In this document: in pieces, positions 2,201 through 4,675 of the stretch
Position numbering within the stretch: the first letter of the stretch is position 1
Layout: each line of letters starts with the position of its first letter
NCBI GenBank assembly: GCA_024698805.1
Contig: JAILQT010000025.1
Location: 1-49,943 of the forward strand
DNA length: 49,943 bases
Reading direction: 5' to 3'
From: Solobacterium sp.
Lineage (GTDB): Bacteria; Bacillota_I; Bacilli_A; Erysipelotrichales; Erysipelotrichaceae
Notes under the pieces: model-generated
Database searches by the model: none
What the model saw: the letters and a program-made list of their open reading frames with translations, nothing else
What the model was told of the DNA's origin: nothing
Position numbers and translations under genes: made by a program

Positions 2201-4675
2201 TCAGTTGATTGTCTGGATCGTGAATGACTGTCTCTTTGACTCGCCGTATTCCGAATTATAGAGATTCTCGGCGTAGTCATCGTCTTCGATGCGCTCCATG
2301 TTGTCCCATCCGGAATCATACGGGTCATGATCCCCCCGGAACCACATGCATGTATCGCTCTGGTTCATATCGTTGACCAGTGTCTCGATGAACTTAAGTC
2401 CGGATCTCGTTTCGGAAACGGTGCACTTCCCCCTCATTTTTATCGAACCGCTGACATATTCATATTCCAGATACCCGTCATTCCTGAGATACAGCTTCTT
2501 TTCGCTGTCTGCAGCGAATATGACGGACGGTTCGAGATTATCCTTGAGCGTGACCAGGCACAGGATCATGCCTTCATCCGCCCTTGTCTTTGTCGTGATG
2601 ATGACTTCGTCTTTTCCATCCGAATCAAGGTCGGTCAGTTTGTATCCGAAATCTGTCAGGGTCCCTTCGGAAAGGATGAATTCCACAGCGGGATACTTCT
2701 TGTTTATAAAGGCATCCGTAAAGAATTTCAGTATGACTTCCGCAGGATCCGCAGCCTCTGCGGGTTCTTCGGACGCCTTCGGTTTTTCCTTATCTTTCTT
2801 TCCGCCCTTTTTGCCGGTCTCTTCCTGTTCTTCGGGATCGGTGGCCTCCGGTGAAGGCGCGGGTGTTTCTTCCGGTTCCTTTGTCTCGGGCCCGGCGCTT
2901 TCTTCCGGAACGTCGATGCCGAACATCTTCGCATTCGGGAATACGCCGGCAGTGGCAGTCGCCTTCAGGTCGATGATGCCGTACTTCCCGTTCACTTTGA
3001 TGAATGCTTTCCCGTCGCTGACATAGCTGGCTTCTTCAAAACAGTAATCCGTAATGAATTCACCGTGTTCATCGACATAGCCCCAGTAACCGTTTTTCTT
3101 CACGGCACAGTAGCCGCCGGCGAACGAAGCCGTATCCTCGAAAACATCTTCCAGCAGCGGCTGGTCTGTTTTCGCATCATAGATCTGGTATTTCTTCTTG
3201 CCGAGCTTGACGGTATAGAAGCCGTTGGCGAAATGACCCGTACGGCTGACGCCGTCCAGTACGACGACAGTGCCGTCGCTCTTTACATGTGCGGCAGAGC
3301 CGGTTTTTTCGCCGTTACTGTCGATCACATCCATGATGCATTCCCGGACATCATAACTGAATGCTGTCCAGCCGCCGTCCGCATCCCAGACGACCGCGTC
3401 ATCCATGACTTTCAGATAATAGGATGCAGCCCCGGAAGTGCGTCCGACTGCTGTCGCCATCTCGGTAGACCGGAAGTCCTCTGTATAGACGCGCATCATC
3501 GAGTTCATATCGACGTTCTCTTCCGCCGGGTAATACTGACCGGACCTGTCCCACGCGATCGGGCATTCCTTGCCCCTGTCGCCCTGGTACACTTCCAGCT
3601 CAGGCGCAATGATCTCATTGCCTTCGTAATCGTACAGACCGTATTTCCCGTCTTTGATGACGATGAGGACATCGTTATAGTTCCTTCCGGAATAGCCTGT
3701 CTCAACTTCCCCCCAGATCACAGGCGCGCCTTTTCTTGCATAGGTGACGTCGTTCTTCTTGTCGTCGCTCAGACTGCCGGTCAGTGTATATACCTCACTG
3801 AATTCCATCTCCGGTTCCGCGGCCCAGGTGATCTCCGGCGTCGGCTCCGGTGTCGGTTCGGGTGTGGGCTCCGGCGTAGGTTCCGGCGCCGCTTCTTCGG
3901 TCGGCTCCGGCGTAACCGCAGGCTCTTCTGCCGGTTCTTCGGAAGGTTCCGAGCCCCTGGAGATGATGTCATCCCCCTGCTTTGAACTGTTCAGTTTGGA
4001 TATGAGCAGGAAGAGCCCGAGGCCGAGTGCGATCAGCACGGCTGCGATGATGCCGAGCGTCTTTCCGCTGACGCCCTTTTTCGGCTTAGCGGGAACGGGG
4101 CCTGCTGTCCTGGGTGCCTGCCTCGGCGTCAGTTTCTGCGTCGCGTCGGACTGTGCGGCAGAACGGTAGAAAGCAACACCCGGATCATCACGGAAGCTCA
4201 GCAGGAAAAGCGCAAGCTGCGAGGCTTTCGCCGGGTAATTCTTCTCTGTCATGAGGTTCGTGATCTTTGTCTCGGCGCTGTTCAGCAGGTAATTGACAGT
4301 ATTGTCGTCGAGGCTTGTCCTGGATGCGATCGCCCCTTTCGCAAGGCCGTCATGATAATACATGATCAGGGCGTTGCGCTCTGCCTCTGTGAGCTGCCCG
4401 AGCATCTCAAATACATCCTGCTGGGAAATGATCTCCGGATATTTTGCGCCGCATTCATCCAGGATGAGCTGTTTCATGAACAGTTCGAAATCATCCGCGT
4501 TGCTTGCGCGCAGGTTTTCAAATCCGTCTTCGTAGATGACCCTCATCAGGGCGTTCCTGTCGGATTCGTTCGTAAAAGTTTTATTCACTGCTTCCGTGAT
4601 GACGTCATAGTATTCCTGAAACAGATCATCATAGGCACTCTTATTGCCTGCAGCAGCCAGTTTGATATCAGCCAT
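2201..4675 (-). CDS. ECF-sigma-like N-terminal domain - TM - PEPT-rich linker - WG-repeat extracellular protein with C-terminal DxDxDG module
   Basis: ORF 2201..4783; likely start MADIKLAAAGNKSAYDDLFQEYYD at 4675. Sigma region 2/4-like segments, TM GIIAAVLIALGLGLFLLI, (PEPT)n linker, WG-type repeats (GKYGLYDYEGNEII, GYWGYVDEHGEFI, GKYGIIDL), LTDLDSDGKDEVII motif. Confidence 0.82.
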   Translation of the reverse strand: MADIKLAAAGNKSAYDDLFQEYYDVITEAVNKTFTNESDRNALMRVIYEDGFENLRASNADDFELFMKQLILDECGAKYPEIISQQDVFEMLGQLTEAERNALIMYYHDGLAKGAIASRTSLDDNTVNYLLNSAETKITNLMTEKNYPAKASQLALFLLSFRDDPGVAFYRSAAQSDATQKLTPRQAPRTAGPVPAKPKKGVSGKTLGIIAAVLIALGLGLFLLISKLNSSKQGDDIISRGSEPSEEPAEEPAVTPEPTEEAAPEPTPEPTPEPTPEPTPEITWAAEPEMEFSEVYTLTGSLSDDKKNDVTYARKGAPVIWGEVETGYSGRNYNDVLIVIKDGKYGLYDYEGNEIIAPELEVYQGDRGKECPIAWDRSGQYYPAEENVDMNSMMRVYTEDFRSTEMATAVGRTSGAASYYLKVMDDAVVWDADGGWTAFSYDVRECIMDVIDSNGEKTGSAAHVKSDGTVVVLDGVSRTGHFANGFYTVKLGKKKYQIYDAKTDQPLLEDVFEDTASFAGGYCAVKKNGYWGYVDEHGEFITDYCFEEASYVSDGKAFIKVNGKYGIIDLKATATAGVFPNAKMFGIDVPEESAGPETKEPEETPAPSPEATDPEEQEETGKKGGKKDKEKPKASEEPAEAADPAEVILKFFTDAFINKKYPAVEFILSEGTLTDFGYKLTDLDSDGKDEVIITTKTRADEGMILCLVTLKDNLEPSVIFAADSEKKLYLRNDGYLEYEYVSGSIKMRGKCTVSETRSGLKFIETLVNDMNQSDTCMWFRGDHDPYDSGWDNMERIEDDDYAENLYNSEYGESKRQSFTIQTIN
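3840..3930. repeat. Proline-linker microsatellite-like repeat, (Pro-Glu-Pro-Thr)n coding
   Basis: Repeated ggctccggtgtcggttcgggtgtgggctccggcgta; encodes EPTPEPTPEPTPEPTPE. Confidence 0.8.

Follow-up and report, generated by a model that had tools for sequence, protein, structure and literature searches.

A probable sigma-derived receptor head on a WG-repeat membrane protein of Solobacterium, and its membrane-tethered ECF sigma relatives

Tethered ECF sigma factors have so far come mainly from Actinobacteria (ECF48, ECF52, and ECF53) and from a Pseudomonas system (IutY). The ECF52 protein SCO4117 of Streptomyces joins an ECF sigma head, a transmembrane (TM) segment, a proline-rich stalk, and an extracellular binding domain in one chain, with a zinc-finger (ZAS-type) domain and a carbohydrate-binding domain, and the group has been described as exclusive to Actinobacteria (PMC5826349). 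IutY (ECF243), ECF48, and ECF53 also combine a sigma domain and a membrane segment in one protein, to which a recognizable anti-sigma domain is fused, and IutY is released by regulated proteolysis (PMC8999054). In ECF43 (EcfP/PknT and EcfK/PknS), a Hanks kinase gene adjoins a sigma factor whose region 2.2 is without the DxxD pair, and a conserved Thr in this region is phosphorylated (PMC13147305). We found no description of such sigma fusions in Firmicutes in the literature, of which our coverage was partial.

We analyzed 49,943 nucleotides of a draft genome of the gut-type bacterium Solobacterium sp. with 5.7% contamination (GenBank accession no. GCA_024698805.1; contig JAILQT010000025.1, positions 1 to 49,943), here called the window. 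The gene at 2201..4675 on the minus strand (ATG at 4675, TGA at 2201) is an uninterrupted frame for a protein of 824 amino acids (aa), the window protein. An earlier note on this DNA had described a sigma-like N terminus, a TM segment, a PEPT linker, WG repeats, and a DxDxDG module in a single chain, and this order was borne out by the open reading frame (ORF), Pfam, hydropathy, and a structure model. The features of the locus are the following.

2201..4675, minus strand: window gene, with sigma-like head, single TM segment, PEPT stalk, WG-repeat ectodomain, and C-terminal DxDxDG module (ORF, Pfam)
4442..4675, minus strand: sigma region-2-like helical domain, aa 1-78, contact residues diverged (profile-profile comparison, AlphaFold2, Foldseek)
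4424..4441, minus strand: leftover linker between regions 2 and 4, ~6 residues, aa 79-84 (helix boundaries of the AlphaFold2 model)
4244..4423, minus strand: sigma region-4-like helix-turn-helix domain, aa 85-144 (Pfam Sigma70_r4_2, 22.1 bits; Foldseek)
4196..4225, minus strand: post-sigma4 helix, aa 151-160, where intact relatives have a conserved GIKLYxxxPLxFFxYLL tail (alignment, AlphaFold2 model)
3998..4057, minus strand: single TM segment, aa 207-226, N-in by the positive-inside rule (hydropathy)
3836..3958, minus strand: Pro/Glu/Thr-rich (PEPT) stalk, ~aa 240-280 (sequence)
3539..3643, minus strand: WG repeat 1, YGLYD at aa 345 (Pfam, sequence)
2981..3085, minus strand: WG repeat 2, aa 531-565, the best Pfam stretch (Pfam)
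2879..2983, minus strand: WG repeat 3, YGIID at aa 565 (Pfam, sequence)
2204..2746, minus strand: C-terminal module, aa 644-824, acidic loop DLDSDGKDE from aa 682, FG-GAP/VCBS-like by eye (sequence)
3..2192, minus strand: neighboring gene, cut by the contig end, for a Hanks-type Ser/Thr kinase (aa 9-247; Pkinase, 3e-52) with a TM segment at ~281 and a solute-binding-protein ectodomain (aa 395-676; SBP_bac_1, 4.6e-6)
4880..4905, minus strand: terminator-like hairpin between upstream ABC-transporter genes and the pair formed by the window gene and the kinase gene

Three stretches of the window protein matched the Pfam family WG_beta_rep (PF14903; E = 6.3e-13; 49 bits against a gathering score of 25.6), and a Pfam search of the C-terminal module gave no match. 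Hydropathy, on which all TM calls here and in relatives are based, revealed one hydrophobic segment only (residues 207-225; mean KD of 2.94) with 5 K/R on its N side, and the N terminus is probably inside by the positive-inside rule. Within the genus, lipoproteins are the commonest form of the WG-ectodomain group (a clear lipobox in 15, and ~5 more that are likely). Ten of the 37 members sit on sigma heads, intact tethered sigmas included, and one is carried by a BlaR1-type Peptidase_M56 protein (L080:568-2676; WG plus SH3). The ectodomain has therefore been joined repeatedly to signaling heads. Because the same module occurs behind lipobox signal peptides and on the BlaR1/M56 protein, the WG part of the window protein is very probably outside the cell, and the extracellular placement proposed earlier has strong, if indirect, support. 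Its export on lipoproteins and its union with M56 and sigma heads are most simply explained if it is a module for sensing or binding outside the cell.

The N terminus of the window protein is sigma derived, and its sigma likeness is real. Pfam found Sigma70_r4_2 at residues 88-134 below threshold (E = 1.2e-4; 22.1 bits against a gathering score of 25.7) and did not detect sigma region 2, NCBIfam returned weak generic ECF matches and nothing else, and a PDB sequence search with the head gave chance-level matches only. In a profile-profile comparison with nine intact relatives, residues 5-142 aligned to both sigma regions (probability of 96.4%; E = 1.4e-9). An AlphaFold2 model of the head (pLDDT of 80) contains ten helices, and its best PDB matches in Foldseek were ECF sigma chains (AlgU-MucA, SigW-RsiW, SigK, and RpoE; mostly anti-sigma complexes) with a probability of 1.00. 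PhyR was also among the matches. The sigma4 part alone superimposed on solved sigma4 domains with an rmsd of 1.0-1.6 Å. Whole-head TM-scores against ECF sigma chains were just 0.3-0.5, because the sigma2 and sigma4 domains are differently placed. Sigma2 and sigma4 domains are both recognizable by fold and profile, even if Pfam places region 4 below threshold and misses region 2. The claim that regions 2 and 4 lie in the N-terminal ~170 aa stands at the level of the fold and was otherwise overstated, as region 2 has diverged and hardly any linker is left between the two.

Heads of this kind are common in relatives. A profile matched 64 of the 70 genomes of the window's genus (soluble sigmas counted too). 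We examined over 40 ORFs there (~360-1360 aa) that encode a sigma-like head, and most had a predicted TM segment behind it. Genes on the relatives' contigs were called with a simple ORF caller. Nine intact heads, once aligned, proved too diverse for use as a search query, and a contig scan of the genomes with the window head as the query gave no match. A locus identical to contig JAEEPV010000212.1 is from Solobacterium sp. Tb.RUG.32, a member of the genus. Sigma70_r2 and r4 were found by Pfam in all nine canonical members; these have a linker with FSDL..E and a post-sigma4 tail, GIKLYxxxPLxFFxYLL. Ectodomains in the family include WG plus SH3, VWA with TSP3 repeats, DUF3160, and NlpC/P60. The order's other families also have this build (19 of 247 genomes at 1e-35), as do Lachnospiraceae, Ruminococcus, and one more Clostridia MAG. 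The window protein shares the architecture of this Bacillota family (sigma-derived head, single TM segment, and variable ectodomain in one chain) and lacks two marks of its canonical class, intact sigma determinants and the GIKLY-PLxFF tail.

Two genomes were especially rich. The 4.3-Mb genome G264, from another genus of the family, gave 71 profile matches, most in ORFs of 430-490 aa, and has ~60 membrane-tethered ECF sigma genes, some of them tandemly arrayed as ~4-kb units (L321-L324 and L327-L346). Genome G135 gave 28 matches; its ~25 tethered sigmas are 330-370 aa long and have a short ectodomain, which in some contains a DWACCKDDM motif (L325, L326, and L347-L366); a gene for a large secreted protein follows ~120-440 bp after them. 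A TM segment was predicted in 53 of the 54 sigma-head proteins examined in these two genomes, and the next same-strand gene encoded a signal-peptide-like N terminus in 49 of the 53 cases with a readable neighbor. The surface proteins often end with a TM segment and a Lys/Arg tail, and one has leucine-rich repeats. In a two-part motif search, TGAAC-N17-CGAC lay upstream of 18 of 31 G264 genes (6 at most in shuffled sequences). G264 contains 33 copies of the stricter TGAACG-N(14-17)-CGACTA, all with a spacer of 16 bases (reversed control, 1), and comparison of the lists placed 28 of these 33 TGAACG-N16-CGACTA sites just upstream of a tethered sigma. The spacers vary while both hexamers stay constant, which speaks against plain duplication. 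The motif is built like a classic ECF promoter. A motif of the GAAC-N-CG[AT]C kind was not clearly enriched before the tethered sigmas of G135 or the window's genus, and no common promoter motif was found before those of G135; the promoter evidence therefore covers the G264 subfamily only. The intact tethered sigmas look genuine.

The window head differs from intact relatives at conserved positions. Besides the start Met, 19 intact heads have nine positions in common (L30, Q57, F76, W79, N86, P126, L146, T177, and R181), five of which are gone from the window head: the alignment shows R45 for Q57, F66 for W79, D73 for N86, and L130 for R181 (in the recognition helix), and the linker stretch with the invariant P126 is deleted. 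The second D of DxxD is A42. The region 2.2 motif DxxD..Q has become DRNALMR, and the region 4.2 motif TVxxR has become NTVNYL, so to the earlier question of whether contact residues are kept, the answer is that the RNA polymerase (RNAP)- and DNA-contact positions are changed. The linker was read from the helix ends of the predicted model: between the final helix of sigma2 and the opening helix of sigma4 are 6 residues, compared with ~32 in an intact relative. In sigmaL, the linker that joins sigma2 and sigma4 has 20 residues and, fully extended, passes through the cleft and the RNA-exit channel of RNAP (PMC6372665). The window head falls short of the about 20 residues or more of a functional ECF sigma, and with six residues this path through RNAP is impossible. 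Given the loss of most family-invariant residues and nearly the whole linker, a role for the window protein as a promoter-recognizing sigma is doubtful. As judged from the alignment and the model, the head is probably not a working sigma and instead a sigma-derived receptor head.

The earlier note had proposed a one-protein signaling device with a tethered sigma, an idea that fits the intact relatives, with their full Sigma70_r2/r4 and with the ECF-type promoter motif that precedes many of them in one genome. Applied to the window protein, it would mean a working ECF head at the membrane that is either freed by regulated proteolysis, in the manner of ECF52/53 or IutY, or signals in place when the WG repeats bind a ligand. 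Fusion plus proteolysis is established for IutY and has been suggested for ECF48/52/53 (PMC8999054). We nonetheless consider this unlikely for the window copy, in view of its 6-residue linker, its lost sigma residues, and a region 2 that escapes Pfam; nor is there a motif of the GAAC-N-CG[AT]C kind, as in G264, upstream of the gene. An unusual mode of RNAP binding is still conceivable for a diverged sigma and would count against a pseudo-sigma.

Degenerate heads are also found elsewhere. In a class of ~20 sigma-TM-SH3b proteins (L122-L140), most have the R-to-L change in the recognition helix and have lost DxxD. Most of these proteins are encoded at one conserved locus, behind a common upstream gene, in numerous species of the genus, and degenerate heads can therefore persist long, at least in that class. 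By eye, the upstream gene is DUF711-like, and an O-methyltransferase (trmR-like) is sometimes found downstream. Further short-linker degenerate heads are present in the window's own genome. A head tree that grouped the window protein with three other degenerate heads of this genome was set aside (long branches, without support values). At three sites adjoining or near full tethered sigmas, a sigma2-like stub stands alone before a TM segment (L103:3436-5115, L117:2144-6275, and L117:15714-18476). A search of 70 genomes of the genus turned up no close ortholog of the window protein.

It is similarly improbable, in our judgment, that the sigma-like part is a relic, a mere cytoplasmic anchor of a surface WG protein without a signaling role. 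The usual form of the ectodomain as a plain lipoprotein would suit a relic, as would the sigma2-like stubs of some relatives and the missing orthologs; the confidently predicted fold, the intact frame, and the retention of SH3b-class degenerate heads at one locus in many species argue against it.

A receptor kinase gene that had been missed in the earlier note adjoins the window gene. The two are codirectional, with the kinase start codon 8 bp past the window gene stop, and may be cotranscribed. The solute-binding ectodomain of the kinase is ~70-75% identical to kinase-free proteins of ~570 aa in many genomes of the genus. As their ectodomains occur elsewhere without heads, both genes of the pair look like cytoplasmic signaling heads joined to ectodomains that otherwise stand alone. 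The window's genome has ~13 receptor-type Hanks kinase paralogs, whose kinase domains are alike and whose ectodomains differ; several of the genes are in tandem (L281, L282, L284, and L286). Related genomes (L289-L293) have such kinases clustered with FHA-like, PP2C-like, and FtsK/SpoIIIE-like genes, which by eye are reminiscent of type VII secretion loci. A conserved pairing was rejected, as a kinase gene adjoins a tethered sigma at the window locus only. Positions 1-427 of the window recur at the end of another contig (G000:C112; L287:7074-7500) as the same solute-binding sequence with 92.5% ungapped nucleotide identity; both are contig ends, so that the sequence either exists in two copies or reflects strain variation where the assembly broke. 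Upstream, at 4910-9746, the genes resemble, by eye, those of a nucleoside-type uptake system, with a BMP-type lipoprotein, one ABC ATPase, and two permeases.

The adjacent kinase and a region 2.2 without the second acidic residue recall ECF43 (PMC13147305), but that the kinase phosphorylates the head to supply the missing negative charge and so switches on a sigma is very unlikely, since the DRNA of the window has no Ser/Thr where ECF43 has a conserved Thr (QTTA), phosphorylation would not repair the linker loss, and the kinase adjacency is not conserved in relatives. An EcfP-type phospho-switch was rejected because Thr is absent from region 2.2.

We favor a receptor whose head is a pseudo-sigma and which may act together with the adjacent kinase; we put this reading at about even probability. 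The window protein would be a single-pass receptor with the WG ectodomain outside, the PEPT stalk passing through the wall, and the head inside. The membrane-tethered ECF sigmas of the lineage would be the ancestors of this head, which has kept the sigma2-sigma4 fold and lost the linker and the contact residues for RNAP loading and promoter reading. Most likely it would now serve as a protein-binding signaling head, with the transmembrane Hanks kinase as its probable partner; this neighbor is known from one genome alone, and the partnership is therefore unproven. For a wider reading, we place the chances a little short of even: that Bacillota have a large family of membrane-tethered ECF sigmas (~60 in one genome), each beside its own surface protein in the richest genomes and with a shared autoregulatory ECF promoter in one, and that some heads, including that of the window protein, are pseudo-sigma receptor heads that signal via partners such as the adjacent kinase.

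The tethered design extends here across Erysipelotrichales and some Clostridia, with very diverse ectodomains (WG, SH3, NlpC/P60, VWA, and DUF3160). In one genome, dozens of surface proteins seem each to have their own tethered sigma, which offers a testable control of surface variation. The degenerate heads would show a transcription-factor fold turning into a receptor head. Such use has a likeness in PhyR, in which the sigma2-sigma4 fold serves protein binding and not promoter recognition (sigma mimicry); PhyR is a soluble response regulator, whereas the window head sits on a transmembrane protein. Compared with ECF52, the window protein has WG repeats and a degenerate head and is without a zinc motif; a fused zinc anti-sigma domain was rejected, as only one Cys (C75) precedes the TM segment. 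Where IutY, ECF48, and ECF53 have a fused anti-sigma domain, it has just a short helix after sigma4. Unlike ECF43, its head is membrane tethered, with no Thr in region 2.2 and no normal linker. The window protein is by architecture a member of the tethered sigma-ectodomain family and is not classed here as a functional ECF sigma, an ECF52, or an ECF43 protein, because defining features of each were tested for and not found. The design of its intact relatives resembles ECF52/ECF53 minus the zinc anti-sigma domain.
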